Shown piece after piece: positions 983-26,669 of a stretch of DNA of 35,332 nucleotides. The stretch spans positions 1 to 35,332 of the IMG/VR virus record IMGVR_UViG_3300009370_000088; one strand, given 5' to 3'. The DNA is from a virus. Position numbers and translations under genes: made by a program. Each line of letters opens with the position of its first letter. The stretch's first letter is position 1. Under the pieces are notes generated by a model that saw nothing but the letters and a program-made list of their open reading frames with translations, was not told the DNA's origin and ran no database searches.

Positions 983-1404
983 TCATGGAATCCGCCGTTT
1001 TCATATACGCTCCAGGCGTCCTTCCAGACCTCGTACTTGGCGCGACTGTCGCCGAAGGATGGACTCAGGTAGAGCGATCTCGCGCCCTCCAGGCGCCTTA
1101 TGGGGATGTGGTAGAATACGTCGGCGGGAACGACGTATGCAGCCAATACGTCGACCAAATCGGGATCAAGGGGCGCTTTCGTCTTGCCGCACCCGGCCAG
1201 CAGGCGGTGAGCCTTGCTTCCCTTCGCCCGGTAGCTGGTGCCCTTGACCTGTACCCGAATCTTCGTTCCCTCGCCGTTCACCACCATGACGTCGTAAGGC
1301 AAATAGTCGCCCTCGGGGACCAACACGTCCAAGCCGCGCTTCAGCGCCTCGCTCTTAAAACGCGCCTCGTGGCTGGTTCCCTCGCGCTTTACGTTAATAG
1401 CCAT
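979..1404 (-). CDS. PD-(D/E)XK nuclease (QxK variant), cassette copy A
   Basis: The predicted 141-aa nuclease has an E13 / D38 / Q52-x-K54 catalytic pattern (context VPEGDYLPYDV followed by RVQVKGT). That is the E-D-QxK version of the PD-(D/E)XK fold known from the homing endonuclease I-Ssp6803I and related PDDEXK_5-type proteins. The expected activity is Mg-dependent dsDNA cleavage, but the target is unknown. The ATG at 1404 is chosen because GAGGAGG lies about 5 nt upstream. A longer frame would only add low-complexity residues. The gene overlaps the preceding small-protein gene by 11 nt. It is clearly paralogous to the gene at 29850-30263: both share VPEGDYL-YDV, QVKGT, a VD-LAAYV block and a C-terminal LYP/LYL-type strand. 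It could be a free-standing homing endonuclease, a Holliday or branch nuclease, or an anti-host nuclease. Confidence 0.75.
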   Translation of the reverse strand: MAINVKREGTSHEARFKSEALKRGLDVLVPEGDYLPYDVMVVNGEGTKIRVQVKGTSYRAKGSKAHRLLAGCGKTKAPLDPDLVDVLAAYVVPADVFYHIPIRRLEGARSLYLSPSFGDSRAKYEVWKDAWSVYENGGFHE

Positions 1405-1585
1405 CGTCGTCCTCCTCGTCCCCGATTGGGAAGTCCGCCTCGAACTCGACGTCGGGCGCATCGCAGAAGTCGTTGATTACCGTGCTTATCACTTCCAGTA
1501 CCGCAGTCGGGCCAAGGTCGCTCTCCTCAAGCCAGCGGTTGAGGACGACGTTAAGCTCACGTCGAAGTTGCTCGCGTGGCCCCAT
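1394..1585 (-). CDS. Small acidic partner protein of nuclease cassette A
   Basis: This is a 63-aa protein with a helical N-terminus (REQLRRELNVVLNRWLEESD) and a very acidic tail (GDEEDDDGY). It is paralogous to the protein at 30256-30438 through the shared core LNRW[LV]EESDL and a conserved spacing of acidic residues. Both paralogues lie directly upstream of, and overlap, a paralogous PD-(D/E)XK nuclease gene. The start could be either of two ATGs two codons apart; 1585 gives a 1-nt TGATG overlap with the preceding gene. I infer a cofactor, inhibitor or specificity subunit of the nuclease. It has no recognised domain name. Confidence 0.7.
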   Translation of the reverse strand: MGPREQLRRELNVVLNRWLEESDLGPTAVLEVISTVINDFCDAPDVEFEADFPIGDEEDDDGY

Positions 1586-1791
1586 CACCATTGCCCGAAG
1601 TCCGTTTGCTTGGGAACCCGCCGCGCCTTGCGGGTGCGTACCTTCTTCCCGTTGAAATACTTTACTTGCGTGCTCCCCCAAAAACGAAGTACGGCCAAGT
1701 CGAACTTGCGCTTGTCGAGCACCGTCATCCTCGGGCCGGGACTCCAGGGAACCTCGTCCAGCCTGCGCTTGGCTTCACCCGCGATCCTCAC
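1585..1791 (-). CDS. Hypothetical 68-aa basic protein
   Basis: This small, strongly basic, aromatic-containing protein sits between the methyltransferase and nuclease cassette A. It overlaps the methyltransferase end by 17 nt and abuts the next gene as TGATG, so an internal ATG at 1728 (MTVLDKRKFDL...) is an alternative start. The C-terminal third (KYFNGKKVRTRKARRVPKQT) looks like a nucleic-acid-binding tail. No family is recognised. The tight packing and the plausible composition are the main support. Confidence 0.55.
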   Translation of the reverse strand: MRIAGEAKRRLDEVPWSPGPRMTVLDKRKFDLAVLRFWGSTQVKYFNGKKVRTRKARRVPKQTDFGQW

Positions 1792-3268
1792 GCAAATACT
1801 CCCCCAGAGTCTTAGGATAAGTCGTGCCCACGCCCAGTTCTTCCAGCTCCTCGGGGGTATAAGTCGCTTGCAGGCGCTTCAGGCGCCGCCCGATCCACTC
1901 GGCCACGTTTACGGTGACGGCGTTGCCGCAGGCGCGGTATCTGGGACCGTCCGCCTGCTTGACCACCTTGCCCGTAGCCTTCCATTCGTTGCCTTCGAGT
2001 TCCAGTTCCATCTTCTCCAAGGTCCAGTCGTCGGGGAAGCCTTGAAGGCGTTCGCATTCGCGACAAGTCAGGCGGCGCACGGTGAGGTTGCTCGCCACCC
2101 CCACGCCTTCCCCGCCTTGCTGCGAGCGCAGGGTTACCGAGACGTCCTCGCTCGCCTTGGGGGTGGTGTCTCCGTTCCATGAGCAGACTACATTAGAGGG
2201 GCGACTAGGACGATTCTCACCCTCTGCTCGCAAGCACCCCGAATGCTCGCCTTCCTGCCAATAGCCTTGACCGGTCTCATACATCACCTTCGGCCCGCTC
2301 GCATTTGCTATCCCCGTGGCAGAGGTTACCGTGGCGGCGGTATCGCCCGTCTCCTCGCCGTTGTAGACGTCGCAGCCTTGGGCGATAATTTGTCCGCCTA
2401 CTCCATGATTGCAGTTAAGCGTCGAAGCTTGGTTTACCAATGTTTCGGCGTTAGCTTGGTTTACCAATGTTTCGGCGTTAGCTTGGTCGCTTGCTCGGCA
2501 TATTACGGTCTCGCTGCCCCCGCCTAGGTCTCCTCCTTGACTTCGGAGGGTTCCGACTCCTTCTTCGTATCCGCCGAAGCTACCCGGCGTAAAGCCGCCT
2601 CCAGCATCGGCGGGAGAGTCTTGCCCCGCTTCTCGGCTCGGCGCAGGATGCCGGCGCAGGCGCGACTGCTGAGAGAATATTTCTCCGGCGGCTCCCTCTC
2701 CAAAATGTCCGAAAGTCGCAGATATAAAGACCCGTCGACGTCGCTGGGGAGCGGCTCGCACGACTCGTCCGCAGGGGGAACGCCATCCCACGTGCTGAGT
2801 GTCGAGTACCGTCCATCCGACCTCACTAGCCCCGATGTCGAGTAACTCTCGGATGCACCCCGCAAAATCGAGGCCATTTCCGCTTGAGAAGATTCCGGGC
2901 ACATTCTCAGCCAACGCGAGGAACCTACCTCCGCCAGTTCCTCCTCGCCGAATAGCTCGCTCTGCGAGTCCCTTGATGATTCTGCACGCCTCGAAGAACA
3001 ATCCGCTTCTTTCACCTTCCAATCCTTTCCTTTTGCCGGCTACGCTCAAGTCCTGACAGGGGAAGCCGTACGTTATAAAATCGCAGTCGGGTAAGTCGTC
3101 CGCAGTAACCTTGCTCACGTCGCAGAACAACGGGACGTCCGGCCAACGGCGCTTCAGCACGCCGGCGGCGTTCTTGTCCCACTCCACTTGCGCCACGCAC
3201 TCATGCCCGGCGCGTTCCATTCCTTCGTCAAACCCGCCCACCCCGGCGAATAATGAGATGAATTTCAC
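1775..3268 (-). CDS. C5-cytosine DNA methyltransferase (Dcm-like)
   Basis: This enzyme transfers a methyl group from S-adenosylmethionine to cytosine C5 and probably protects phage DNA from host restriction. The motifs appear in order: I FAGVGGFDEG (7-16), IV GFPCQDLS with catalytic C71, VI ENVPG (121-125), VIII QRRRRVF (175-181), a long variable target-recognition region (about 190-405), IX with RLQGFPDDW, and X GNAVTVNVAEWIG. All key residues are present, so it should be active. The start is GTG in a GTGA overlap with the coiled-coil gene, with GGAGGGG about 6 nt upstream. The 497-aa length exceeds a minimal Dcm because the recognition region is expanded. It contains Gly/Ser/Asn-rich segments and a 9-residue tandem repeat. 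No cognate endonuclease with a restriction-type layout is adjacent, so it is an orphan or anti-restriction enzyme unless the downstream nuclease A is its partner. Confidence 0.92.
   Translation of the reverse strand: MKFISLFAGVGGFDEGMERAGHECVAQVEWDKNAAGVLKRRWPDVPLFCDVSKVTADDLPDCDFITYGFPCQDLSVAGKRKGLEGERSGLFFEACRIIKGLAERAIRRGGTGGGRFLALAENVPGIFSSGNGLDFAGCIRELLDIGASEVGWTVLDTQHVGWRSPCGRVVRAAPQRRRRVFISATFGHFGEGAAGEIFSQQSRLRRHPAPSREAGQDSPADAGGGFTPGSFGGYEEGVGTLRSQGGDLGGGSETVICRASDQANAETLVNQANAETLVNQASTLNCNHGVGGQIIAQGCDVYNGEETGDTAATVTSATGIANASGPKVMYETGQGYWQEGEHSGCLRAEGENRPSRPSNVVCSWNGDTTPKASEDVSVTLRSQQGGEGVGVASNLTVRRLTCRECERLQGFPDDWTLEKMELELEGNEWKATGKVVKQADGPRYRACGNAVTVNVAEWIGRRLKRLQATYTPEELEELGVGTTYPKTLGEYLREDRG
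2426..2479. repeat. 27-bp perfect tandem repeat within the methyltransferase
   Basis: Two identical 27-bp units lie head to tail, followed by the first 8 bases of a third. In the methyltransferase frame each unit encodes nine residues (core NQANAETLV), so expansion or contraction keeps the frame. The repeat falls in the variable region between motifs VIII and IX, where target specificity is set in this family. It probably arose by replication slippage. Confidence 0.95.
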
Positions 3269-3945
3269 TTGATCCCCTCCAAGACGTCCTGAACGTTACC
3301 GCACATTAAGTTGGTCAAAGCCTCCACCCGGCGCTCCACCAGAGCCTCGCGCTTCCTAACCTTCGCCAATTCGTCCTCCAAGTGTTTGAGGACGGCCTTA
3401 GCCTTGTCGCGAGTCTCTTGGGCCTCGTCGCGCGCTCGCTTTACCGCCCTCTTCAACTTACCTTCCACCCGACTGCGAGCAGCGGCATCGGCGTTCTCCA
3501 TGTCCGCTCGCGCCTTACGAGTCAGTTCGCGAGCCTTCTCTAGGGCCATGTACCCTCGGTGCGCCTTGGCCGATGCCGACGAAAGCTTGGAGCCTACCGA
3601 TTGCTCGCGCTTCTCAACTTCCTCCTCGCGCCTCTTCAGATTCTGCTCCCAATTCGCCGCCTGCATCAGCTTACGTGAGCGGCGCTCGCGCTTCTTCAGG
3701 TTCTCCTCCTTGAGCTTGAGGCTCTCCTCAAGCTCCGTCAGACGCTCCCGGCGCTCCTCTAGCCCAGCCTCCAATATGGACGCAGCATCTTCCCGTTTGA
3801 GCAACTCATGCTCGACGCCTCCCCCAAGCTTCTTTGCGGGTCTGCGATCAAAATTCCCAAAGGCGTAGAGGTCGTTACCCACCCTAACCATCGCATGTAG
3901 GGTGCCGTCGATCCGCTCTGTCCATGCGGTTACGTTGTCTCCCAT
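3265..3945 (-). CDS. 226-aa coiled-coil protein
   Basis: After a short globular N-terminus (residues 1-45) the protein becomes a long charged helix, about residues 50-215. It has heptad-like runs rich in E, K, R, A and L (for example ERRERLTELEESLKLKEENL), a predicted coiled coil. No catalytic motif or membrane segment is visible. The ATG lies in a TAATG overlap with the RHH gene, with GAAGGAG about 2 nt upstream. Its position between a recombination-type exonuclease and a methyltransferase suggests a DNA-metabolism accessory or structural role, but I cannot name a function. The long plus-strand frame opposite it is a shadow of the charged repeat composition. Confidence 0.8.
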   Translation of the reverse strand: MGDNVTAWTERIDGTLHAMVRVGNDLYAFGNFDRRPAKKLGGGVEHELLKREDAASILEAGLEERRERLTELEESLKLKEENLKKRERRSRKLMQAANWEQNLKRREEEVEKREQSVGSKLSSASAKAHRGYMALEKARELTRKARADMENADAAARSRVEGKLKRAVKRARDEAQETRDKAKAVLKHLEDELAKVRKREALVERRVEALTNLMCGNVQDVLEGIK

Positions 3946-4136
3946 TACTCCTTCAACTCCTCCAGCTTCTCCTTAGCCATCCGCCTCAACCATTCAGACG
4001 CCGAGAGGTCGGAAAGCATGGCGGCAATCCTAATCTCTCTACGCATTCGAGGGGTGACGGCGAACGCAAGGAGAACTCCCCTAGCATTCACCTTCTCCCC
4101 CTTGAACCCGGTAGCCGTGTAGTTCTTGGCTTTCAT
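3945..4136 (-). CDS. 63-aa ribbon-helix-helix-like DNA-binding protein
   Basis: A short strand-forming segment (GVLLAFAVTPRMR) is followed by two helices (EIRIAAMLSDLS and ASEWLRRMAKEKL). This is the strand-helix-helix order of Arc/CopG-type ribbon-helix-helix repressors, with the usual 'T/S-x-x-x-R' turn before helix A. Such proteins bind DNA as dimers and often autoregulate their operon. The start is an ATGA overlap with the exonuclease gene. It is a plausible regulator of this early operon. The target site is not identified. Confidence 0.7.
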   Translation of the reverse strand: MKAKNYTATGFKGEKVNARGVLLAFAVTPRMRREIRIAAMLSDLSASEWLRRMAKEKLEELKE

Positions 4137-4951
4137 GCGTCCTGCAATTCCCCCCGTGGGTCATACTTTTTTAAGCTACGCCAAAGTTGGCAGGCCGCTT
4201 TGAAATCCTCCCATGCGGAGGCTAAGACTTCCGGAGCATACGAGCATACCTCGAACCTCCCCGGCTCCGTGGACGAAATGTAACAGTTAGCTCCGAAGAC
4301 TCTCCCGTTCTTGATTGCTTCCGGCCCCCAATAGGTAGCGGCATAAGCTGCAATCTGGTGGACCTGAAAGTCGTAGGGCGTGACCTTCACCTTTTCCCTA
4401 GTCTTGCGAGTCTTCCAATCAATGACTCCGTTCTGTCCATCCGGCCCCGTGCAAACGATGTCCACCATACCCGCAAACCCGTGCCTCAGGTTCACCACCG
4501 TTTCCTCCCTTTCGATGAATCGAAGCTGCTTTTCCTGCTTCCATGCGAGGGCGGGTTGAACGTATGGGAGAAGCTCGTCCTCCACGGGATGCCCGTCGAA
4601 ATACTTCTCAATGGCATCGTGGATTCTGGTCCCGAAGTCAGCCGCCTCTTCGACAGGCTCACTCTGCTTGATCAAGCACCTATCCGCAAACTGGTCGGAA
4701 GTCTCGCCTTCGATTCTCGGCAGGTCGAATGCGACCTCCGCCAGAGACTTCAGCTTCCAGCGATCCAGACCGGGTTTGGCGAAGATGTTGAGTATGGTCG
4801 TGACCGATGGGACGAGCTTCTGCTTCCTCGCATCCCTAAGAGTCGTATTTCGCTCATGCCCGTCTTTCGTCTGCTGAGTGTGGCGAGGGCTGCCCCCCGA
4901 AGTATACCAATGTCCTCCGGAGGGAGACTTCTTTCTTAATAGAAGAGCCAC
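4133..4951 (-). CDS. PD-(D/E)XK exonuclease (RecB/Cas4-like, PDDEXK_1 type)
   Basis: The 272-aa protein shows the RecB-type nuclease layout. GTRIHDAIE carries the N-terminal histidine (H111). GFAGMVDIV carries the metal-binding aspartate (D164). VIDWKTRK is motif II/III (D178, K180). QVHQIAAYA (about 196-204) is the downstream QxxxY motif. It is predicted to degrade or resect dsDNA ends during phage recombination or replication, acting with the SSB-like and RuvC-like proteins encoded just upstream. The start is GTG, two bases after the stop of the SSB-like gene. No iron-sulfur cysteine cluster is evident, which argues against a true Cas4. No annealing protein (Redbeta/RecT-like) was recognised next to it. 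Confidence 0.85.
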   Translation of the reverse strand: MALLLRKKSPSGGHWYTSGGSPRHTQQTKDGHERNTTLRDARKQKLVPSVTTILNIFAKPGLDRWKLKSLAEVAFDLPRIEGETSDQFADRCLIKQSEPVEEAADFGTRIHDAIEKYFDGHPVEDELLPYVQPALAWKQEKQLRFIEREETVVNLRHGFAGMVDIVCTGPDGQNGVIDWKTRKTREKVKVTPYDFQVHQIAAYAATYWGPEAIKNGRVFGANCYISSTEPGRFEVCSYAPEVLASAWEDFKAACQLWRSLKKYDPRGELQDA

Positions 4952-5636: not shown

Positions 5637-5654
5637 GTTAGTTAGTTAGTTAGT
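5637..5654. repeat. Tetranucleotide (GTTA/TAAC) microsatellite
   Basis: About 4.5 copies of GTTA (TAAC on the coding strand) span the stop codon of the RuvC-like gene and the gap before the SSB-like gene. Because the unit is four bases, TAA appears in all three frames, so the tract is an all-frame translational stop. Slippage would not alter either protein substantially but would change the spacing between the two genes. Confidence 0.9.
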
Positions 5655-6124
5655 GAAAGATGGTGCCTGAGAATCAATAAAGCGTCACAGGTTTTTAGGG
5701 TGAGTCCCTTTATTCTCGGAAACAGCCGGGAGGCATGGTCTCGCAGGGCTTTCTTTCGAGGTTGGCCCTTCAGACCCTGCAAGCCCGGAAGTCCTTTTTG
5801 CCAAGCTTGCGGGCGGACGAGTTCCATAGGTATCTTGTTGGCTCGAATGGAGCCTCGTATGAACCCGTAACTATCGCCCAATTTGAAAGAGGTGGACGAG
5901 GGAATCATTTTCCCTGCGAAGGGCGGAACGAGTTCCACGACTGCGGTCAGGCTCGAGGCGTCCTCATGATTTGCTAGCCAAGAGAGGTACTCGAGCCACT
6001 CGGTTTCATCGGTCCACGGGTAAAGCTCGACTCGCTCGAGGCCGCCCCATTTTCCCGCCTCTTGCTCGAATGCCACCGCATACCCGCCGCTCATTCCGGG
6101 GTCTACTGCGAGAGTGATCCTCAT
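5642..6124 (-). CDS. RuvC-like Holliday junction resolvase
   Basis: The 160-aa protein has an RNase H-fold nuclease signature: LAVDPGMSGG (D8) on the first strand, AVVELVPPF (E64), and a C-terminal helix with CDALL (D147). Between them is the GFIRGSIRANKIPMELVRP/W segment typical of phage RuvC-like proteins. It should cut four-way junctions or branched DNA before packaging. The start at 6124 is an ATGA overlap with the 50-aa gene. A longer frame would add an unconserved Arg/Gly-rich extension. It lies in one operon with the integrase and the SSB-like protein. The start is less certain than the family. Confidence 0.85.
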   Translation of the reverse strand: MRITLAVDPGMSGGYAVAFEQEAGKWGGLERVELYPWTDETEWLEYLSWLANHEDASSLTAVVELVPPFAGKMIPSSTSFKLGDSYGFIRGSIRANKIPMELVRPQAWQKGLPGLQGLKGQPRKKALRDHASRLFPRIKGLTLKTCDALLILRHHLSLTN

Positions 6125-6273
6125 GCGGCCTTCTCCACCGTCTCCGCGCGAAGCGCCAAGGTTGCCAGTAGTTCCTCCAGCGTGCCTTCCCACTCCCCGC
6201 CCTGAGTGTCCAGAGTAACTTTCCCATCGTCCTCTAGTCGGACGATCAAATTGCCTAAGTGAATTACTTTCAT
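6121..6273 (-). CDS. Hypothetical 50-aa protein between integrase and RuvC
   Basis: This small acidic protein starts in an ATGA overlap with the integrase stop and ends in an ATGA overlap with the RuvC-like start. That double coupling is strong evidence that it is real. It begins with a beta-like segment (KVIHLGNLIVRLEDDGKVTL) and ends in a helix (LEELLATLALRAETVEKAA). No family is recognised. A role as an excisionase is possible from its place next to the integrase, but it lacks the basic winged-helix pattern expected of Xis. Confidence 0.7.
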   Translation of the reverse strand: MKVIHLGNLIVRLEDDGKVTLDTQGGEWEGTLEELLATLALRAETVEKAA

Positions 6274-7295
6274 ACCTCCATGTCGTTTTTATGTTCGATT
6301 AAATCCGCATAGTATTTCTCGGTAGTGGTCACCGAACTATGCCGCAAAGTTTTGCTGGCTGCGAAAATGCCGTGAGTGGTCGCCATCCTCGCTCCCAAGA
6401 TTTTCCGCAGACGGTGGACGGGCTTCCTGTCCTCTATCCCCACTTCCTCCCGAAGGAACCCGACGAACTCCCGCTGGACGAGCTTCGGGCGATTCGCCCC
6501 CTGAACGATAAACTCGTTCGAGTCGTCTCCCTCATAGCTTTTCAAAAGATGGTAGACTCGCTTGGGGATTCCCGTCTTCTGCTTCTTTTTCGATTTCGTC
6601 CGCTCGAGGAAAACGTAGTGGTTGCCGGAAAGCTCGCGGAGGTCGGAAAACTTTGCCCGGAGGATCTCCGAGGATCGAAGACCGCATCCCATAGCCAAGA
6701 GGTAAATCTTGTGGAACTCCGGGTTCTCTTCGGGCAGGGCGTTGCACCGCTCGATTATTCGATCCACCTCCTCGGTGGAAGTGGAGAAAGGTTCGAGGAC
6801 GGCCTGCTTCGGAGTGAAGGCTACGAAATGGGAAAAGGTCGAAGGCGGAATCCCCGCTCTTTCATATATGCGGACGGCGCGCTTGGAAAACATGGCGCGC
6901 GCCAAGCGCAAGACGTGGGGCGATCCGCCCGAACGCTCGTACCGCTCGGGAATCGAATAGCCGTCCTTCAGCGAGTTGAGAACGTTGATCGACTCGTCGT
7001 CGCCGATTCCGACGAAACCTAAAACGGTGTGCAACTGCTGAGAATACGTCAGGTAAGTCTTCGCCTGACCCGCCAGTTCGCCGGCATCGAGAGCTTCCTC
7101 GAGGAGTCCGAGAAGATCGGAAATCCATATGGCTCTCTTCGCTTCCCCCGCGATTGCCTGCTCCACCATTTTCGGGGCTACAAATTGCGCCTGCTCGGCC
7201 GGGACTGAGGCGTGAAGGATAAATTCTACTCCGGAGTGGACGAATCTTATCATGCACTTCCGGCCCTTCGGGGTTACTTGGAAGTTTGGGAGCAT
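6270..7295 (-). CDS. int: Tyrosine recombinase / phage integrase
   Basis: The 341-aa site-specific recombinase has the catalytic set visible in the C-terminal domain: R207 (CGLRSSEIL), a lysine in the KSKKKQK beta-hairpin (about 236), H294 and R297 (HRLRK), H319 (TLRHSS), and the nucleophile Tyr at 328/329 (EKYYADL). An alpha-helical core-binding region precedes it (about 55-150). It should integrate and excise the phage at the attP-like tRNA-Lys fragment that lies about 120 bp upstream of its start. It is the first gene of the leftward operon, with a G-rich ribosome site (AAGGGGGGGAG) before the ATG. Palindromes upstream could carry arm-type sites or an operator. Confidence 0.93.
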   Translation of the reverse strand: MLPNFQVTPKGRKCMIRFVHSGVEFILHASVPAEQAQFVAPKMVEQAIAGEAKRAIWISDLLGLLEEALDAGELAGQAKTYLTYSQQLHTVLGFVGIGDDESINVLNSLKDGYSIPERYERSGGSPHVLRLARAMFSKRAVRIYERAGIPPSTFSHFVAFTPKQAVLEPFSTSTEEVDRIIERCNALPEENPEFHKIYLLAMGCGLRSSEILRAKFSDLRELSGNHYVFLERTKSKKKQKTGIPKRVYHLLKSYEGDDSNEFIVQGANRPKLVQREFVGFLREEVGIEDRKPVHRLRKILGARMATTHGIFAASKTLRHSSVTTTEKYYADLIEHKNDMEV

Positions 7296-7633: not shown

Positions 7634-7822
7634 CTATCGTTTCGACTTTATGAAGCGATTTTTGGGCTTGGCGGCTTCAGTCTTCTTCCGCTCGTCTCGC
7701 GCTTTTTTCTGATCTAGTCGGTCCAGAGCAGCAATAAAGGCATCCCCCTGTTTATCCGACATTTGAGAGAAGATGCCATCGGGGTGACTGAAATTGTAGA
7801 CTTCGGGTTTCTTATCTGGCAT
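7634..7822 (-). CDS. Hypothetical 62-aa basic protein at the end of the structural operon
   Basis: This small lysine-rich protein has a helical middle (SDKQGDAFIAALDRLDQKKARDE) and a basic tail ending FIKSKR. It overlaps the end of the giant polyvalent gene by 11 nt and has a GAGAAAATACGAG-type ribosome site, so it is probably co-translated. No family is recognised. Its place makes a minor virion or packaged DNA-binding protein plausible. Confidence 0.6.
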   Translation of the reverse strand: MPDKKPEVYNFSHPDGIFSQMSDKQGDAFIAALDRLDQKKARDERKKTEAAKPKNRFIKSKR

Positions 7823-10800
7823 CTCGTATTTTCTCCATAGCTTGGTCGTAGGACATATTCAAGGCGTCTGCCTTATCTCCCTTGAGGAAGGACCAAATGT
7901 CCTTTTCAGGATACCAGAGAGTGGCCTGAAGGTCTGCCGGCGTCAAGTCATATCCCTTCTCCCTGAGCTTCGCCAAAGCCTTGTTGAAAGCCTGAACGAT
8001 GACCGTACGTTCCTGTGGGGTAGGAATGTCAATGGGCTTCAGTTTCCCGCTGATGGAAGTGGCTGCATAGGCCCAGTACGGCTTCTCCGCCTGTATCTTA
8101 GCCTTCTCCGCCTCGGCTTTGGAAAGTCGAGCCGAAGCTTGCTTGGTTGGCCTTCCCGCTTTCTTCCTCCCCTGTAAATCCGCCTTGGCTTTCGTAACGC
8201 TTCTCCCCGCTGCCGCAAACCTCCGCTCCCATTCCTTGGACAGTCGCCCCGCCAGCTTGAAGACGGCATCGGCATTCGCAGCACCCTTCTCATGTTCGCC
8301 GAAGAGCCTCTCGAAAGTCTTATCCGAGATTTTGAAATTCATTTTGCCGTCCTTGGCGATTGATCCTGAAATCTTCAAGCCTCTCAGAAACTCAGGAAGC
8401 TCGAAGTCGGTCTTCCGCCTCCCCGTGTTTTTGCGGTGGGAATAAATCAACCTCCCGATTGCTTGTGGAGAAAGGCTGACGTCCACCGACCTACCCGTGA
8501 GCCTGCCGAAGGTCCGCCTCAACCACAGGTCAATGGTTACGGGATCGTAGTTGCCCTTGAGGTTCTGGAAAAAACCTTGTCCAATCTTCGGGCCGAAGAC
8601 TGCGGAACCTTTCACTACGTCGTCCATTCTGCCGTCGATGGCAAACTTCTCGTCGCCAAAGAACTTTTTGCCGAACTGAGTTAACTCTCGGACGGTGTAA
8701 TCTCTGTCGAGGAAACCGTGGAAGTCAGTCATCCCCGATTCCATCTTGTCGAATGCTCGCAAGTTCTTGGTGATGGCCGGAGCCTTGCCCCCGTGATCGA
8801 TTTCGTAGTCGAATTTCCCGTGCTTGGCCTTGTACTCGTATTGGTAGACTGCGGCCTTGGCATTATCGAGGACGCGCATGTTCTGGCTGGTGATTGCCAA
8901 CGCTCCGAGAAATCGGTCTTTCGCTTGTTTGGAAGTTTTGATTTCGGGAAAGATTTCTTCGGCGATGGACATGGCCCTCTCGACGGCAGTCGTGTACCAA
9001 TCGACGGCGCTGCCCGTCCTCTGTAGAGCCGCCTCCCCTTCGCTCGCAACCATGTCAGCCAGCCAATCCAAGGTTTCGGGTCCGTAGTCGTAAGGATCGA
9101 TAGGCTCGCCGTACCGCTCGACGTACTTCTCCTGAAAAAGCTTCGCTACCTCCTCATTGGACGGGGCCTGACCTCGTCGGTATCCTGCGGGGAAGCTTGG
9201 GGAGTCGCCGTCCCCCCAAGAAGAGACGGTATTGGGCGAGGCGTCCTCCGGGGCGGCAGGCATAAAGAGTTTGTCGGTAATCGTGACGTCGCCCTCGTCG
9301 AAGATGACGTAGTTGTAGTCGCCCTTGCCCTTGGCCCGTGACGCTCCTTCCAGGTACTTGATTCCGGGTATGCCTGCTTCGAGGAGGGCGGCGCTTGCGG
9401 CGGGATCGCCTTTGATAACTTGAGATAATCCGAGATAGAGATCAGCACCCTCCTCTTGGTACTTCCAATCCTCGCCTGAAATCCCTGACTCAAACCTATC
9501 TCGGAGAGTTGTCCCATAATGCTCTTGGTCAATTATCTCCTCCAACTTCTCCCTCACCCCCTTGGGTTGCTCGCTCAAGGGCTTATCCCATAGCAGATAC
9601 TCGTTCTCCTTCGGGGCTAGTTTGACTTTGTAGAGACTGCCGGGAGGTCGTTCATAACTAATCTTTGCATCTTTCCATTCGTCAATCCTAGACAAAATCT
9701 TTGGGTCGGAGGTTAGTTTTTTGGCATAATATGCTTTGTTGTGCTTGAACTCTCCTGCCTGCTTTTCACCAATTTCCAAAAACTTAACTGCTTCTAATCC
9801 GACTGGATCAATTTCATCACCCCTTGCGATTATTTTACTACCCTTCTTAATTGTTAGGAGTTCTCCTTGGGACAACTCTTTCCGATAATGCTCCGCCACT
9901 TCCCTCTTCCCCGCAAAGTAAAGCCCATGCCCATAAGCCTGTGCGCCCTCGCCAGAACCGATCTGCGCCGACCGAAAACGACCTAATGGAGCGCCTTCCT
10001 CCGCCTTGAAAGTGTGCGGAGTCCCGTGGTAGGCCGCAGGCATGAACAGCCTGCCGGGGCTTCTGGGGTCATAGGCTCCTCTGGTCTCCCTCGGAGTCCC
10101 TCCCTGCCAGCCCTTGGGCGGGTCTGGGATCTCCCCGGTTCCTACCTTCGGAGTACCCGTCCTCTCGGCATCCTCGTTCCAGATTCTGGCAAATTCGGTT
10201 TCCTCGCGGGGAGTCTTGGCAAATGGAAGTGTCGTCTGTCCCTTCGGATCTTTCTTGAAGATTAGCTCGGGAGGAGTCGAATCCGATGGGGCTTTCTCGG
10301 CAGGCATATAGAGCCTGAGATTCTCGACGGCCTGCGGATTCTTCGGGAGGTCGAGGACGTGGGAGCCGAACTCCCTTGACCTCTCCAATGCGGGAATTTT
10401 CCTTAGATTCTCCCGCCTGACCTTCCCCCCGCCTATCTTCTTTGAAATCTTGTTTGCGATGGAGACGAGTTCGCGGTCATAGAATGCCTTCATTCCCTCG
10501 CCGCCGACCTTCAGGTCGAGGCCCTCTAGGTGGGCAAGGGGCATCTCTTCCCCTTGCTTTTTCTCAAGCTCTATCTTTTCCAAAGCTTTCTGGGCCGGCT
10601 CCTTCCCAATGTGATCCGCCAGCTTTTCCTTTGGGACTTTGGTGGCAAGCGTTCGGTACTCGCCGCCCATTTGATCTACGAGGCGAGCCGTGATTTCGTA
10701 AGTGCCATCGGGTTCGGGAAATACTTCGATGGCGACCACGCGCTGGCTCAAATCATACCTCGCCGCCTGCCCCTCGCCGTCCAGCCATGCGACACGGTCA

Positions 10801-13800
10801 TAGCCGTTTTCGAGGGCTTCGCGGATTACCCGCTTGAGGCCGAGGGCGGGCCAGTTCTTCTTGAACGGGGCGTCTGGGACCAGAGTGGTATCTATGTAGT
10901 CTAGCCCTCCTTGGGCTTCAAGTTCTGCGACAATCTCCCCTCTCCTCCGATTCGCCCTTGGATTAGTTGACCCGTATTTCGCCAAATCTGCAAATTCCTG
11001 TCGCAGGGCATTCTTTTCCCTTTCGCTCAACCGATACCCATCCTTCCGCCCCTTCTGATGCCAGTCGGATTGCAGTTCCTCGATGAACAGAACCTTCTTG
11101 CCGTCCGCATCGATCCGGTCATTCAGGCGAAGGTGGAGGAGGACGTTTCCCTCGTTGAAGTGGGGGTCGTGGTAGACTTTGGATTCGGCTTCGGGTGACG
11201 GGACGTCGCGCCTCCCGGCATAATGCCAATCGGGGGGAGGCAACTTCACCAGCACCTCCCGGTAATTCGTCCCGCCGGGTTCTTGGTATTCGGAGAATTT
11301 AGTCATGGAGGAACTAGGGATAATCCGCCCTCCGGGCAAACGCCCTGATATGCCCCCCAGCACCTTCTCCTCCAGCCGGGGAGCGTTCGCATCGACGAAA
11401 GCATCCACCTCGGCCTTGGTCACGCTCTTGCGGTCCTTCAGCCAATCGATCAGGCCGATCTCGTCGGCGTATGCCCTGGCCCCGGCAGTCTTCCCCAGGG
11501 CCGCCTCGAGTTGGCCGCGACTGAACTTATCTTGCTTGATGCCCGGAAGGACGACGTCGCGGATGTTGTCCGACAGACCGAGGGGGCTTTCGGCAGGCAT
11601 GAACCTGACGTCACGTCTCCTCTCGGACGGTCCCATCGCGCTCATTCTTTCGCTCGGCAGGGGTCTGCCGAACAGCCCGGAGACTCTCCCGAATGCTCGA
11701 TCCTTCGTGAAAAACTGTCCCTCCCCCGCTTGGTCGGAAATCAGCTTTACTCGCTTCGCGTCGAAAATGGCGTAACCGTCCGGAAGCTTGTAGCCGTGCC
11801 ACCCCGCTTCCCGTAGTAAGTTTTCATACGAAAAGACGTCTTCCGGGTTCCTCTCCAATTGGTAAACGACGTCCAGGTCGGGAGACTTCGGATCATCCTT
11901 TCGGATCGAGTCCGCCAGCATGGAAACATGCTCGATGGACGATGGATCGAATATGAACTCGGCGTTGGTCGCGAACTCCAGCGGCTTGACGCCGGGGGCC
12001 GATGCCTTCTGCTCCGCTATGGCGAGCTTTCTGTCGGGAGTGAGTTCTATCGTCCGGCTGGTCGAGTAGCGTTCTTCACCCTGCCGAGTCACTCCCTCGG
12101 CATAGTCGGGTTTCCGAATGGCGTCGAGGATGGCGCCGGGTTTGAATCCCGGTCGCCGGCCCGTACCCAACGGGCCACCGTAGTAAAGTTTTACCGGTAC
12201 GAAAATTCCTTCCTTCTCGACGGCTAATGCGGGACTACCGTTATCCCCTTTAATCCATGCCTGAAAGTTCCCGGCCTTGAAACCGTTTTCAATCCAATCC
12301 TTCCTCGCCCTGGCGATGAGGAGCTTGTCGTCTTGAACGGCTTGCCGGAATTGCCTTCCGTACTTCGACGCCTTCCTCTGCTCGATGCTCTCGGCAGGCA
12401 TGTAGAGTCTGCCGCCCTCCGTAAATTCCCCGCTGACGGGGACTTCGTGGTCGGAGGCCAGCTTGACGTTTTTCCCGTCGAATATGACGAGGCTCGTCTC
12501 CCTCTCGAAAAAGTCGGAGTCGTCGGCGAGACGCTTGGCGTATGCTTCCGGCGAGCCGTCCTCGCCACGGTACTGAGTCTCCCAGATACCGTCGAATCCT
12601 AGCGACTCCAGTTCCTTGGCGAAACTCAAGGCCGGGTCGCCCATGATTCCCTTATAGCTTAAAGTCGGGTCGGCTGCGACCTTTTTGCCCAAGGCCCGTT
12701 CCAGTTGCCGGCGATGACTTGGGTCGGCGGCGTTGAAAATCTTCTTGGCGCGGGTTACGAGGGCAAGAGGCTTTCGGCCTGCCGGAGAATACTCCATCGC
12801 GAACCATTCGTTGCGAGCCAGCCATACCGGCTTTTTCGGATCGAACGTCCAGCGGCCTTCCTCATCCGAAGTCGGTTTGAAGCCTTCGGTTTTTCGACTG
12901 CCTGCGGTGGGAGCTTCCCTGCCGACGTCGCCACCGTGGAAGAATACGAAAGGCTCGAACTTATCCCCGACTTTTACGGCTAGTTCGGGGGTCTGTTTTC
13001 CGCCCTTAGTCACCCACCTCTGGAATCTCGGAGCGGCGAATTTCCGACGCTCGAAATCCAACCTCGCATTCGAGGCGGGCATGAATAATTTCCCCTCGTT
13101 TTCGACGCCTAAGTCTCGGTAGGCTATCCGCTTCTTTTTCGCCATCGCCGCCCGATATGCTTCCGCCTCGGCGGGGCCGATTTTAGTCTTGGCGAGGAGA
13201 GCTTCCTCCTTTGGCGTCAATTTTAAGCTGATATCACCTTCGCCCTGCTTGTCTACTGGAGTTTTACCGGCTAACAGCGACTCCTCCAGGGCGACGTTCA
13301 GGGCATCGTTCATGGAAATTCCACGCTCCTTCGCCACCTCTTTCGCCCTAGCCTTAACTTCGGGGCTGGTTCGCAGTAGGATTTTCTCCGGTCGGCCCTT
13401 TGATTCGGCAGGCATGTAGAGCCTGTCGTGTGGGAGGTAGTTGTACTTGATGTTGTCCCAATTGAACCCGATGCCGACCTTGCCCGTGGGGAGAGGCGCG
13501 GCTAAAGACCCGACGTGATATGAGCGGTAGGAGTCCTGAAGCTTTCCATCCTCCAGCAATTGCCTGAGTTTTGGGTCTCGAATGGACGGGGCGGACTCCT
13601 TATGCCCCATCGCCGCCGTAACGATTTCGTTCTCGTATCTACCTTCCGGATTGATCCTCCCCTCCGGGTCTTCGGAAGCCCTCTCGGCAACCTCTCTAGC
13701 TCTACGAATGAAGGCGTCCGGGTCGCTGATTAAACCTTCCCTCACCAGCACCTCGATGTTGTTTCTGAGGTAGGCTTCGTCTATGGCCTGCAAATACAGG

Positions 13801-16331
13801 CCCGGAGTCTTCCCCTGAATCCCTCGTATCGCCAGCCCTACCGGCGACACTACCCTGACTTTCAGTTCATTGTTACTATACTTGCTGGGTTTCCCCGAAC
13901 GGTAGTAGAAATTCAACTGGAGGCCGCTGGCGATTGCCTCCTCGAGGTCGTTCAGGGCGATGCGGATTGATCCGCGAGTGTCCAAACGCTCAAAGATTTT
14001 TCTCATTTCAGGAGTAAGTCGCTTCCCGTAAAGTTGCTTTTTTATCACCACCCAGCCACCCTCGGACTGTCCTTCGATTCGGTCGCGAATCTTCCGTAGT
14101 TCGTTGGTGATTTGCTTATTCCGAATGATGAATTTCCCGGCATCCTTCAGGCTTATGCCCTGCGCGCCGAATAACCTTTCCACGCCTTGATCGGCAGTCT
14201 CCCCTTTCTTCAACTCGACGGAGGTTCCCTTTTTCGCATGTTTCACTTTATCGACTGCGGCCCGTTCTCGCTGTTTAACGTAGTTTCGGAACAGCTTTCG
14301 GACGGTGGGAGACCTTTGAGCCATTGGGTTCCCCTTCTTGTTCCTTATGGTGATCGTAAGCGGGTTTCCGAGGTTATCCACTACGCCGAACAACGAAAGG
14401 ATTTTACGACCGGATTCCACTACCTTCTGGCGGACTGACGGGTTAATGTGCCGGAACAAGTTCGGATCGTCCGCCATCATCATGGCAAATTGATCCGCCG
14501 CTATTTCATGAGCCAGCTTCTTGGCGTTGTCGCCGACCCCAATTCCGGGGTCGTCTGAGATCGAGGAATAGGCATCGGCGAAATCCTTCCCCTCTTGGTT
14601 GACGTCTACGTAGTCGATGGGGTTGCCGTCCCGGTCTTTCGTGAACGAAAAGCGATACGACTTCTCTCCGGGTTCCGCTTCGTACTCGGTTAGGATTGAC
14701 CGGAGGAAAAACGGATCGTCCTTCGCGGCTTGCGCGGTAAAGGTGTGACCTAGTTCGTGGAAAAGGATTTCCATAGCCTCTATGGAGCCTTTTTTCATAC
14801 TGCCGTCTCGGTTTACGTAGATTCGATAATTGGTCTCATCCCAGAAAGCGTTCTGAGGTTCCCTCGAGTTCGGATCGTCCTGGCGCTGTAATTCCAGCAT
14901 AATCTTCTTATCCACAAAGGTGACCCCCGGCGCCCGGATTCCCGCTTCCTCCGACGTGGCAAAAGCGAGTCTGGCTTCGGGAGTCATCCCGCGAAAGTCC
15001 TTTAATTGGTCGGACGCCCACTTTGCCTCGAGATAGTTTATACTGGTGGCTTCTCTGGACGTCTGGGCCTTCCCTCCCACTTGTCCGGGTTGCCCGAACG
15101 GCATTACCCCACCCATAACCGCACCCGCTCCCACAGCTTGCCCAATGCCCTCGGCCCGCTCGCCGGATGCGTATGCAAGCGCGGCGTTCAACGTCCCTAC
15201 CGAAACTCCATTGACGAGCATATTGAATGCGGCGTCACCCGCTCTGGTAAATCCCATCTTATGCGCAAGCAGGGCAAGTTTTCGCCGCCGGGGTGTTTCA
15301 GCTGTCCGGGCCAAACGCTCAAGAAACCTGACTTGTCCGGAAGGCTGCGACAGGGTGGACAATACCTTTTCCAAGCCTCTGCCCGTTTTGTTGGCGATGA
15401 GACCCGCGACCTCGACGGCGCCAAACGATGAAACAAAAGGCAGTCCCGCAATTGCTCCCGAAATCTGTCCGGCGATTAATGCTCCGCCAATATCCCTCTC
15501 CATGCCAAGTTCCTTTGCGACCCGTGAGGTGATGGTCCTGGGAAGCGCCGCTGCTTTTGCAGCCAGCCCTCCGGCTCGACCCCCCACACCCGCCAATTTG
15601 CCCGTTACCGCAGCCGTTCCCTTGATGGCCTTGCGGGTCACCGCAGCAGTACCTCTTGCGGGCATGGATACAATCTCCGCAGACTTGTCCAAGGCTTTGG
15701 AGAGCTTCGCGAGTCTGGCGCTTTTCGTTGCGGCGGCGGCAACCTTCAGGGTCGGCCCAGCTATGGGAATTATCATCGTCGGATCGGTAAACTCCCCCAA
15801 AGTACGGACAAGAGCCTTTGCCTTGGTTCCGGTTGCCTCGACTATAGCGGGTCTTACCTTCTGGTAGTAGTCGAAGTTTTCGCGGTAACGTTGGTATTCT
15901 CGCCTCCCCTCCGCCTCGGCCCCGGTTCCCCACAGTTTGTCCATTGCGGCGCCACCCAAGGTTTCTGCGAACCTCCAAAAATCGTGCCTGCCCAAGTCCC
16001 AAACGCCACGCTTTACGTCTTTCCACTCGGCCTTGCCCCCGACGACTTCTCCGACTGCTTTCTTCCCCTCGTCCAACATTGCGTTGGCTCCGGTCAGTAT
16101 ATTGGATGCGAAAGTCTTAGTGGCCTGCCACGCAGACCTCTTGTCTTTCTCCCTCTCCTCCGCCAACCATTCGTCGTAGGTCTGGGGGAGCATGGCAAGC
16201 TCTCGACTTAAAGCTTCATATTCGGCGTCCACCGGGCTTCCAAGACCATCAAATTCCGGCAAGCCTAGTTGTAGGTTTGTGGAACGAAGCTCCTTCGACA
16301 AGGCTTCGTATTCTTGATCGAGGTCGGGCAT
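7812..16331 (-). CDS. Giant 2839-aa polyvalent internal virion protein (zincin, RHH, ART-like and LPD domains)
   Basis: This protein is probably packaged in the capsid and injected with the DNA, as inferred for phage polyvalent proteins. Visible regions, in order: a Gly/Ala-rich, partly amphipathic N-terminus (1-470); a zincin-like metalloprotease with H525-E-L-G-H529 and a possible third ligand E609; a WYL-like beta segment (about 785-880, FYYR, then PVGL and LYLQA); a ribbon-helix-helix segment (about 983-1020); two related ADP-ribosyltransferase-like (ART-PolyVal) domains (about 1095-1300 and 1330-1560); a large-polyvalent-protein domain with EELQSDWHQ (W1757); a third ART-like domain (2098-2350, YHGTPH, then GHGLYFA-REVAEHY); and a C-terminal region with a HhH-glycosylase-like segment (about 2575-2612, ending TIDLWLRR). 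Seven copies of R/K-(L)-[FY]-MPA separate these units. It overlaps the next gene and starts one base after the preceding stop. Domain names beyond zincin and ART are tentative. Confidence 0.85.
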   Translation of the reverse strand: MPDLDQEYEALSKELRSTNLQLGLPEFDGLGSPVDAEYEALSRELAMLPQTYDEWLAEEREKDKRSAWQATKTFASNILTGANAMLDEGKKAVGEVVGGKAEWKDVKRGVWDLGRHDFWRFAETLGGAAMDKLWGTGAEAEGRREYQRYRENFDYYQKVRPAIVEATGTKAKALVRTLGEFTDPTMIIPIAGPTLKVAAAATKSARLAKLSKALDKSAEIVSMPARGTAAVTRKAIKGTAAVTGKLAGVGGRAGGLAAKAAALPRTITSRVAKELGMERDIGGALIAGQISGAIAGLPFVSSFGAVEVAGLIANKTGRGLEKVLSTLSQPSGQVRFLERLARTAETPRRRKLALLAHKMGFTRAGDAAFNMLVNGVSVGTLNAALAYASGERAEGIGQAVGAGAVMGGVMPFGQPGQVGGKAQTSREATSINYLEAKWASDQLKDFRGMTPEARLAFATSEEAGIRAPGVTFVDKKIMLELQRQDDPNSREPQNAFWDETNYRIYVNRDGSMKKGSIEAMEILFHELGHTFTAQAAKDDPFFLRSILTEYEAEPGEKSYRFSFTKDRDGNPIDYVDVNQEGKDFADAYSSISDDPGIGVGDNAKKLAHEIAADQFAMMMADDPNLFRHINPSVRQKVVESGRKILSLFGVVDNLGNPLTITIRNKKGNPMAQRSPTVRKLFRNYVKQRERAAVDKVKHAKKGTSVELKKGETADQGVERLFGAQGISLKDAGKFIIRNKQITNELRKIRDRIEGQSEGGWVVIKKQLYGKRLTPEMRKIFERLDTRGSIRIALNDLEEAIASGLQLNFYYRSGKPSKYSNNELKVRVVSPVGLAIRGIQGKTPGLYLQAIDEAYLRNNIEVLVREGLISDPDAFIRRAREVAERASEDPEGRINPEGRYENEIVTAAMGHKESAPSIRDPKLRQLLEDGKLQDSYRSYHVGSLAAPLPTGKVGIGFNWDNIKYNYLPHDRLYMPAESKGRPEKILLRTSPEVKARAKEVAKERGISMNDALNVALEESLLAGKTPVDKQGEGDISLKLTPKEEALLAKTKIGPAEAEAYRAAMAKKKRIAYRDLGVENEGKLFMPASNARLDFERRKFAAPRFQRWVTKGGKQTPELAVKVGDKFEPFVFFHGGDVGREAPTAGSRKTEGFKPTSDEEGRWTFDPKKPVWLARNEWFAMEYSPAGRKPLALVTRAKKIFNAADPSHRRQLERALGKKVAADPTLSYKGIMGDPALSFAKELESLGFDGIWETQYRGEDGSPEAYAKRLADDSDFFERETSLVIFDGKNVKLASDHEVPVSGEFTEGGRLYMPAESIEQRKASKYGRQFRQAVQDDKLLIARARKDWIENGFKAGNFQAWIKGDNGSPALAVEKEGIFVPVKLYYGGPLGTGRRPGFKPGAILDAIRKPDYAEGVTRQGEERYSTSRTIELTPDRKLAIAEQKASAPGVKPLEFATNAEFIFDPSSIEHVSMLADSIRKDDPKSPDLDVVYQLERNPEDVFSYENLLREAGWHGYKLPDGYAIFDAKRVKLISDQAGEGQFFTKDRAFGRVSGLFGRPLPSERMSAMGPSERRRDVRFMPAESPLGLSDNIRDVVLPGIKQDKFSRGQLEAALGKTAGARAYADEIGLIDWLKDRKSVTKAEVDAFVDANAPRLEEKVLGGISGRLPGGRIIPSSSMTKFSEYQEPGGTNYREVLVKLPPPDWHYAGRRDVPSPEAESKVYHDPHFNEGNVLLHLRLNDRIDADGKKVLFIEELQSDWHQKGRKDGYRLSEREKNALRQEFADLAKYGSTNPRANRRRGEIVAELEAQGGLDYIDTTLVPDAPFKKNWPALGLKRVIREALENGYDRVAWLDGEGQAARYDLSQRVVAIEVFPEPDGTYEITARLVDQMGGEYRTLATKVPKEKLADHIGKEPAQKALEKIELEKKQGEEMPLAHLEGLDLKVGGEGMKAFYDRELVSIANKISKKIGGGKVRRENLRKIPALERSREFGSHVLDLPKNPQAVENLRLYMPAEKAPSDSTPPELIFKKDPKGQTTLPFAKTPREETEFARIWNEDAERTGTPKVGTGEIPDPPKGWQGGTPRETRGAYDPRSPGRLFMPAAYHGTPHTFKAEEGAPLGRFRSAQIGSGEGAQAYGHGLYFAGKREVAEHYRKELSQGELLTIKKGSKIIARGDEIDPVGLEAVKFLEIGEKQAGEFKHNKAYYAKKLTSDPKILSRIDEWKDAKISYERPPGSLYKVKLAPKENEYLLWDKPLSEQPKGVREKLEEIIDQEHYGTTLRDRFESGISGEDWKYQEEGADLYLGLSQVIKGDPAASAALLEAGIPGIKYLEGASRAKGKGDYNYVIFDEGDVTITDKLFMPAAPEDASPNTVSSWGDGDSPSFPAGYRRGQAPSNEEVAKLFQEKYVERYGEPIDPYDYGPETLDWLADMVASEGEAALQRTGSAVDWYTTAVERAMSIAEEIFPEIKTSKQAKDRFLGALAITSQNMRVLDNAKAAVYQYEYKAKHGKFDYEIDHGGKAPAITKNLRAFDKMESGMTDFHGFLDRDYTVRELTQFGKKFFGDEKFAIDGRMDDVVKGSAVFGPKIGQGFFQNLKGNYDPVTIDLWLRRTFGRLTGRSVDVSLSPQAIGRLIYSHRKNTGRRKTDFELPEFLRGLKISGSIAKDGKMNFKISDKTFERLFGEHEKGAANADAVFKLAGRLSKEWERRFAAAGRSVTKAKADLQGRKKAGRPTKQASARLSKAEAEKAKIQAEKPYWAYAATSISGKLKPIDIPTPQERTVIVQAFNKALAKLREKGYDLTPADLQATLWYPEKDIWSFLKGDKADALNMSYDQAMEKIRDAR
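9252..13424 (-). repeat. Seven dispersed copies of an [RK]-(L)-[FY]-MPA-[AES] linker motif
   Basis: Inside the giant protein the same short peptide recurs with Met at residues 973, 1084, 1311, 1578, 2009, 2097 and 2357 (Met codons at 13413-13415, 13080-13082, 12399-12401, 11598-11600, 10305-10307, 10041-10043 and 9261-9263). The variants are RLYMPAE (three copies), KLFMPAS, RFMPAE, RLFMPAA and KLFMPAA. Each precedes the start of a recognisable or domain-sized unit of 88 to 482 residues. Codons differ between copies, so the peptide rather than the DNA is conserved. A processing site or a modular joint is inferred. Confidence 0.9.
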
Positions 16332-23978: not shown

Positions 23979-24403
23979 TTTTTAACCGGTTTGAAAGGTG
24001 AACGAGTTAGTTTCTCCGCCTCCGATTTGCTGCATTGTCTTGCCACGAAGATCGGGACCAAGAGGTAAAGTCCGAGACAGCAGGCCGCTACGGTTAGGAT
24101 TTTCTTAATGGTGGAGGTAAACTCATCAAACCCGGTTTGATGGGTTTGGAGTCCTTGCTGGACTAAAGCCGTAACGTCGCCGTGACTCAAAGCCTCGATG
24201 GTTTCCTTGGCTTGCTTGACCTCGGCGTTTCCCTTTACGACTTCTCCGGCCAAGGCTCCGCCTCCGCCTGCCAATCCGATTGCCAATGGTCCCGCCCCCA
24301 AGGCACCTGCCGTTGCAGCCCCTGCGGTGGCTCCCAAGGTCGGATACCATTGCTTCATGGAGCAACCTGAAGAGAAGAAGGCTATGGTGAGGATTAGTTT
24401 CAT
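23975..24403 (-). CDS. Putative lipoprotein with C-terminal TM segment, unimolecular-spanin candidate
   Basis: Starting at the ATG at 24403 (1-nt TGATG overlap with the LamG gene), the protein has a short signal (MKLILTIAFFSSGC) whose Cys14 could be lipidated. A Gly/Ala-rich 'glycine-zipper' stretch follows (about 22-54), then a soluble helix, then a transmembrane helix at about 102-121 and a basic tail. An outer-membrane lipid anchor at one end and an inner-membrane span at the other is the plan of T1 gp11-type unimolecular spanins, which fuse the envelope membranes at lysis. The lipobox is imperfect (S at -3), so a plain signal-anchored protein is the alternative. Two small membrane genes follow. 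Confidence 0.5.
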   Translation of the reverse strand: MKLILTIAFFSSGCSMKQWYPTLGATAGAATAGALGAGPLAIGLAGGGGALAGEVVKGNAEVKQAKETIEALSHGDVTALVQQGLQTHQTGFDEFTSTIKKILTVAACCLGLYLLVPIFVARQCSKSEAEKLTRSPFKPVKK

Positions 24404-25371: not shown

Positions 25372-25619
25372 ACTTCCGGAGTTTGGAACCATGAGCGATC
25401 CCACGCCTCCAAGCTGGGTGATGAAAAGAGGTGGTCGGTAGAGTCCGACCGGTCAGTCTCAATCGGCAGGACGTACTTCCCAAAGTCAGCGTGATCGGGA
25501 TTGTCAGTCTGAAGATCGACGTCGACGGTATAGTTGTTGCCGACGTGATCCCTGCAAAGTTGAAGCGCTTCTCGATAGTCGTCGAGGTCGGTGAACAAAA
25601 CTGCATGTGTGGTAGCCAT
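25368..25619 (-). CDS. Hypothetical 83-aa protein in adhesin cluster
   Basis: This small acidic alpha/beta protein begins MATTHAVLFTDLDDYREALQL and carries a central strand pair. There is no signal or membrane segment. It overlaps both neighbours (TAATG upstream, ATGA downstream) and so is surely in the adhesin operon. Function unknown. It may be a small virion or assembly protein for the LamG proteins on either side. Confidence 0.65.
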   Translation of the reverse strand: MATTHAVLFTDLDDYREALQLCRDHVGNNYTVDVDLQTDNPDHADFGKYVLPIETDRSDSTDHLFSSPSLEAWDRSWFQTPEV

Positions 25620-26432: not shown

Positions 26433-26669
26433 TTAGCTGTTTTTGTATAGGAGAGCGGTGCCGGAAATGGTGATCGCGGAGAAGCGCCCGTAGATAACGT
26501 CTCCTTTCGAGAAGGTCTCCGTAGGAGTGCCTTCCATGTTCCCGGTGATCGACGTAATGGTCGTGTCGCTCAGAAATTGAATGGCGAAAAAGTCGCCCGT
26601 TGCAGCCGTACTCGATATGTATTTGGAGCCGTTGCCCCCGCTGAGATTATATACGCTTACTTGACTCAT
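26433..26669 (-). CDS. Small 78-aa protein sharing the N-terminal module of the LamG protein
   Basis: The whole protein is homologous to residues 1-70 of the LamG protein at 24403-25371. They share MSQVS[VI]Y, LSGGNGS, FFA[IV]QFLSD, TGNM[ED]GTPTETF and KGDVI[FY]GRF. It appears to be a free-standing beta module, perhaps the attachment domain that docks decorations to the head or tail, with the LamG protein being a module-lectin fusion. No enzyme motif. I do not recognise a named family. Confidence 0.7.
   Translation of the reverse strand: MSQVSVYNLSGGNGSKYISSTAATGDFFAIQFLSDTTITSITGNMEGTPTETFSKGDVIYGRFSAITISGTALLYKNS

Follow-up and report, generated by a model that had tools for sequence, protein, structure and literature searches.

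A repeated short peptide at the module boundaries of a phage polyvalent protein as a candidate processing and exchange site

The window analysed here, the whole 35,332-nucleotide (nt) stretch of IMG/VR virus record IMGVR_UViG_3300009370_000088 (positions 1 to 35,332), contains a gene for a polyvalent protein of 2839 amino acids (aa) in which one short peptide recurs seven times (Table 1). Genes for head, tail and virion-structural proteins precede it on the same strand, which places it among virion genes, and its product is probably injected into bacteria. A preliminary description, made from the sequence alone, had placed the peptide at seven methionines and an HELGH sequence at residues 525-529, and the translation confirms both exactly, with no further copies of [FY]MPA. 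The full form, [RK]-L-[FY]-M-P-A, occurs at six sites, and the site at Met 1578 reads V-R-F-M-P-A. In 2000 shuffles of the protein, [FY]MPA occurred 0.02 times on average and at most once. These sites, called joints below, set off units of 111, 227, 267, 431, 88, 260 and 483 aa. The joint motif is absent from the remaining window proteins examined, and the peptide does not recur in any other sizeable open reading frame (ORF) of the same contig, where it matches only in two short antisense ORFs.

Table 1. Features of the polyvalent-protein gene in the window (residue numbers refer to the 2839-aa protein; pLDDT, predicted local distance difference test score)
Feature	Position	Strand	Basis
Polyvalent-protein gene	7812..16331	minus	ORF, 2839 aa
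N-terminal region with zincin, without joint motif	13425..16331	minus	motif scan, BLAST blocks
Zincin-like metallopeptidase region, residues 425-640	14412..15059	minus	HELGH 525-529 and downstream conserved Glu in (A/R)E(I/L)xA(E/D)
Joint 1, RLYMPA, Met 973	13407..13424	minus	motif scan; pLDDT about 24
Module 973-1083, ribbon-helix-helix-like	13083..13415	minus	PHROG and weak Pfam matches
Joint 2, KLFMPA, Met 1084	13074..13091	minus	motif scan; pLDDT about 34
Module 1084-1310	12402..13082	minus	BLAST blocks and clustering; no Pfam match
Joint 3, RLYMPA, Met 1311	12393..12410	minus	motif scan
Module 1311-1577, paralogue of 1084-1310	11601..12401	minus	cluster M3; no Pfam match
Joint 4, RFMPA, Met 1578	11592..11606	minus	motif scan
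Module 1578-2008 (M4)	10308..11600	minus	BLAST blocks and clustering
Joint 5, RLYMPA, Met 2009	10299..10316	minus	motif scan
Short module 2009-2096 (M5)	10044..10307	minus	clustering
Joint 6, RLFMPA, Met 2097	10035..10052	minus	motif scan; pLDDT about 23-33
Module 2097-2356, ART-PolyVal-like (YHGTPH)	9264..10043	minus	sub-threshold Pfam match
Joint 7, KLFMPA, Met 2357	9255..9272	minus	motif scan; pLDDT about 29-35
C-terminal module M1	7815..9263	minus	alignment; marginal DUF7178 match

Relatives of the protein (L numbers) were found by IMG/VR search and compared with it by BLAST blocks, and these comparisons show that modules have been exchanged at the joints. The protein of L008 aligns with window residues 14-975, then with 2094-2359 and then with 2340-2839, and that of L005 aligns with residues 971-1089, 1569-2054 and 2354-2839; where these blocks end, the L005 protein has joints of its own. 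The ribbon-helix-helix (RHH)-like module 973-1083 has moved as a single block, its counterpart being L005 residues 1494-1602, and module 2097-2356 stands beside other neighbours in L003, L008, L124, L138, L149 and L155. When the proteins were cut at the motif and the pieces clustered, a shared module set emerged whose order differs among relatives. Among all ends of protein alignments, 18% fall no more than 5 aa from a joint compared with 3.6% for random points, and 28% of DNA block ends fall no more than 15 nt from a joint compared with 3.7%; the excess of alignment ends at joints is about threefold when limited to the joint-rich part. At base level, a joint can be followed by 45 nt of identical DNA and preceded by unrelated DNA. 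Because the base-level pairs were picked for a one-sided difference at the joint, the alignment-end counts are the less biased tests. In L006 and L010, one module is gone along with one joint, leaving a SEAGAGK scar; the scar of this deleted ART-PolyVal module (L006 1300, L010 199) shows KLFMPASEAGAGK joined straight to the start of M1. Both the claim of the preliminary description that the motif partitions the protein into domain-sized units and its suggestion of a recombination joint, taken as an account of where exchange occurs, are strongly supported by these data, as block ends lie at joints, modules are whole domains and, at the motif, near-identical DNA gives way to unrelated DNA.

In the relatives L004, L008 and L011, whole domains lie between joints, including ART-PolyVal (E 1e-14 to 1e-29), GNAT (E 5e-6) and ASCH (E 0.001, just below the cut-off), and the ART-PolyVal module spans positions 1-140 of a 140-position profile. 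Across the modules of this family, several unrelated domains, catalytic ones included, are thus carried in one large chain, and the window's own modules match weakly. Of the domain names first given to these modules, RHH is partly supported (PHROG match of E about 1e-4 to 4e-5, with weak Pfam matches at residues 980-1030) and "ART3" for module 2097-2356 is weak (Pfam match of E 0.011, sub-threshold). The names "ART1" and "ART2" for modules 1084-1310 and 1311-1577 are not borne out, as a Pfam scan gave nothing for either module. The C-terminal unit, described as helix-hairpin-helix (HhH)-like, is the conserved module M1, which has a marginal DUF7178 match and a well-folded model for which a fold search returned no significant PDB match. 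A search of 289 bacterial genomes with PF18760 gave three matches, and the two that were checked were of no use here.

Models of residues 2075-2839 and 440-1100 cover four joints, and all four lie in stretches with pLDDT below about 36, making them predicted disordered linkers. A position of the motif inside domain cores, which the preliminary description had counted as evidence against cleavage, is not what these predictions give for the four joints.

Joint peptides were also found in other lineages using a motif-blind test for dispersed short repeats with dissimilar flanks, scored as reduced or exact 5-mers. At least four copies of one reduced 5-mer were present in 9 of 58 M1-bearing proteins, in none of 62 other ORFs of at least 900 aa from the loci gathered by that stage and in none of 120 sequences shuffled locally. 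When the criterion was at least three copies of an exact 5-mer, the corresponding counts were 14/58, 1/62 and 1/120, and the sole outsider ORF was a member of the KLFMPA family. This stricter test was used in place of an earlier permissive reduced 5-mer test of the zone directly before M1, in which that zone did not clearly exceed control zones. The peptide varies with lineage: VAPRQQ (L020, L021, L024), RFALD (L201, nine or ten copies), TRARR (L026), TSFG or TSFGD (L193, L204), ATQFG (L175), QFSRR or QFSRA (L192, L219), EASLR-like (L191, L194, L200), FMP variants (L173, L176, L180), PKSKQQ (L177) and DIRYQP (L233). KLFMPA, VAPRQQ, RFALD, TRARR and TSFG are more certain than some of the others, which have only 3-4 copies.

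The same kinds of module are bordered by different peptides in different phages. Module M1 follows KLFMPA in the window and MAPRQQ in L020, and the C-terminal ends of ART-PolyVal modules read DTRFALD, GVAPRQQ or DIRFMP, according to lineage. In L180, an ART domain lies between FMP sites at 2691 and 2865, and in L201 an ART-PolyVal domain (1272-1417) and a DNA methylase (1470-1766) lie between RFALD copies at 1231, 1443 and 1821. This L201 protein is a 5222-aa open frame in which RFALDV occurs about ten times from about 1231 to 3918, several copies being followed by DDTRY, with its C5-methylase domain between two joints. As related phages carry different peptides at the same places, the peptide is probably the cut site of the built-in metalloprotease.

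In the metalloprotease region itself, HE..H does not vary among 17 divergent relatives, most of which also have the downstream Glu, while profile matches are weak and mostly to zinc peptidases. Each KLFMPA-type protein whose N-terminus is present has a zincin of one cluster (cluster 0), and there all counted KLFMPA-type joints are C-terminal to the zincin, the first usually 450-620 aa past HEXXH; in other lineages all but a few joints are C-terminal as well. Zincin cluster 0 goes with the joint families FMP and GQAMP, cluster 1 with QFSR and EASLR, cluster 2 with ATQFG and TSFG, and cluster 3 with APRQQ, TRARR and PKSKQ. In a partial Mantel test, motif and zincin correlate with r 0.24 when M1 is controlled for. 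L191 and L192 also have a joint-like copy 130-140 aa ahead of HEXXH, and cuts on either side may thus excise the zincin.

The codons of the joints bear on whether DNA or protein is conserved. The preliminary description had called them varied, which is half right and fails for proline: CCT encodes 6 of the 7 motif prolines in the window, five at the six full sites and one at the Met 1578 site, compared with 14% of prolines gene-wide, so that the copies resemble one another as DNA more closely than codon usage would predict. Between non-homologous joints, synonymous codon identity is 0.52 within proteins (0.32 expected) and 0.41 between proteins (0.28 expected), indicating that joints have partly spread as DNA. 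In the KLFMPA set, the third positions of the L and P codons hold about 0.4 bits and the first and second positions 1.4-2.0 bits. In L026, L175, L176, L177 and L191 the peptide is kept while its synonymous codons are as free as expected. The joint is conserved at the protein level in several lineages.

With moderate confidence, drawn from the sequences, we favour the reading that this is a phage polyprotein whose joints are sequence-specific processing sites, which would be cut by the zincin in cis and would double as exchange points. The phage would make a single chain consisting of an N-terminal region, the zincin metallopeptidase and a series of effector domains, with successive domains connected by flexible linkers that all contain one peptide of 5-6 residues. 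The in-chain zincin would recognise this peptide and cut at it, whether during assembly, inside the virion or following injection, freeing single effectors. Recombination at joints would insert, drop or swap modules in frame, and with one short peptide closing every module, new modules would be processable at once. Cleavage and recombination are in this sense not alternatives. We infer all three of the cut at the peptide, the zincin as the cutter and the timing; the cleavage suggested in the preliminary description now has good circumstantial support from protein-level conservation, lineage-specific joints, their place after the zincin, their exclusivity and their disordered context. Whether this extends to a polyprotein code, in which each lineage would match a single zincin specificity to a single joint peptide, repeated at all domain boundaries, with the joints as both cleavage and plug-in sites, we consider evenly balanced.

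Several observations weigh against zincin processing at the joints. In many polyvalent proteins with a zincin, no joint repeat is detectable; in a second set of ART-PolyVal proteins about two had joints, one of them from the query's own phage, and no convincing joint repeat was found in the named phages vir555, Tunturi_5, Dfl-JY45, DC33, ctEw122 and MinM2 or in a Flavobacterium elemo phage. Synonymous codons are homogenised in the window, in L201 and in the APRQQ lineage, as a DNA-level process would also leave them. The zincin model, built from a 9-sequence alignment, is poor (pLDDT under 35 there), and the zincin fold is putative. In L191, L192 and L193 some sites precede the zincin in the chain, and KLFMPA stays constant while its partner zincins diverge widely. 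The motif correlates with M1 at r 0.33 when zincin is controlled for, and as it follows M1 as well as the zincin, common descent explains the pairing equally. In addition, a TLSVG/TLSVE repeat occurs in the L188/L196 lineage, where no HEXXH is recognisable, reflecting either another protease or a different role for this repeat.

Among the other explanations, recombination alone is possible but improbable. The repeated DNA would then be a short homology tract for in-frame shuffling and the peptide a tolerated linker by-product, as suggested by the module exchange at joints, the synonymous agreement within and between proteins, the repetition of ATGCCTGCC in the window and the exonuclease, Holliday resolvase and integrase-like genes that the phage encodes. 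However, the copies in the five lineages with free codons have the peptide in common and not the codons, third codon positions are much less conserved than first and second ones, and the restriction of the aromatic position to F or Y points to selection on the protein. Moreover, the peptide is uniform inside lineages and different between them. We regard as unlikely a docking role, in which each domain would carry a short linear motif that binds a virion partner (portal, inner core or chaperone) for packaging or ejection, with partners differing by lineage. A single copy per domain, the flexible context, the lineage-specific sequence and the protein-level conservation would all suit such a motif, but it occurs in no other sizeable protein of the contig, it sits at module boundaries, and a zincin accompanies each KLFMPA protein with its N-terminus present. 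For the same lack of the motif in other sizeable ORFs of the contig, there is no support for a general virion signal.

Less likely still is cleavage by a protease other than the zincin in cis, whether a host enzyme or one of the phage head-maturation machinery. The basic character of some joints (TRARR, QFSRR, APRQQ) and the L188/L196 lineage would fit this, but the PHROG scan of window proteins turned up no peptidase family, other sizeable ORFs, including capsid genes where present, lack joints, and the joint sequence varies between phages. Internal translation starts at the in-frame ATG of the joints are highly improbable: KLFMPA joints do contain Met, yet I or T replaces it in relatives (KLFIPA, KAFIPA, KLYTPA), the RFALD, APRQQ and TRARR lineages lack it, and the codons just upstream are pyrimidine-rich. 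The variants with I or T and the lineages without Met led us to reject an internal start as a general function of the joint. The motif as part of a domain fold was likewise rejected, as the same domains occur without the motif or with another peptide, and pLDDT is low.

Just downstream of the polyvalent-protein gene lie genes for an integrase-like recombinase (window 6270-7295), a Holliday junction resolvase (5642-6193) and an exonuclease (4133-4951), and these three could supply the recombination that shuffles modules. The window also has a DNA methyltransferase gene at 1775-3268 (PHROG 116, E 4e-73), and apparently paralogous small proteins at 24403-25404 and 26433-26669 share a near-identical N-terminal stretch, SQVSxYxLSGGNGS. 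The sole close M1 relative found in a genome collection (L155) is on a contig of a Verrucomicrobiota metagenome-assembled genome, a hint to the host. Limnohabitans phage DC33 (L223, PQ492659) has a 39-kb genome with a 9.4-kb gene related to tailed-phage polyvalent proteins, yet is classed in the Inoviridae; this label looks wrong.

The proposed arrangement recalls three kinds of known system in which one chain holds separable parts. Polyproteins of eukaryotic RNA viruses combine a protease acting in cis with a short recognition sequence repeated between the mature domains. Here, the virus is instead a double-stranded DNA phage, the domains are effectors and not replication proteins, and the module order is reshuffled among relatives. 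MARTX toxins are secreted by bacteria and carry exchangeable effector domains in one chain that are freed by a cysteine protease in cis; to our knowledge they have no uniform six-residue joint. The release of exchangeable effectors by MARTX toxins (PMC6315884) is a working parallel. The candidate protease here is a zincin and not a cysteine protease. The Pfam scan of the window protein found none of the MARTX hallmarks looked for, the cysteine protease domain and RTX repeats. In CdiA, a short conserved VENN peptide marks the point at which toxin modules are exchanged, the releasing cleavage is nearby, and each protein has one variable module. The translation of the 2839-aa protein contains no VENN motif. 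CdiA (PMC9424206, PMC3150448) is a parallel in having a short peptide at a point of exchange and release, the two roles proposed here for the joints. The two systems differ in motif, in secretion route and in CdiA having a single variable module.

The closest likeness is to the polyvalent proteins of Iyer et al. 2017 (PMC5512222), which share the giant multidomain chain, the zincin, ART-PolyVal and other effectors. Passages of that paper give the zincin as the most common polyvalent-protein domain, propose that zincins autoprocess these proteins, and report that P1 DdrB is processed and that the N4 virion RNA polymerase is packaged intact. P1 DdrB and DarA resemble the present protein as internal proteins cleaved before packaging, with a zincin in DdrB, and differ in that those passages of PMC5512222 mention no repeated interdomain site. 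The terms 'linker' and 'inter-domain' are absent from PMC5512222 by term search, its Peptidases section has no joint peptide, and literature searches for the joint motif returned nothing relevant. This agrees with the statement in the preliminary description that no such polyprotein signal had been described, though processing by zincins had already been proposed. The joint peptide would allow giant uncharacterised phage proteins to be parsed into single effectors without domain models, and joints may show how phages maintain a plug-in store of effectors against host defences. Unlike the account in those sections of PMC5512222, a lineage-specific repeated peptide here marks the joints and would be the missing substrate signal. 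The most useful contribution is the joint peptide as a lineage-specific signal, which makes the 2017 zincin hypothesis testable by giving zincins, whose role is a proposed one, a concrete candidate substrate.

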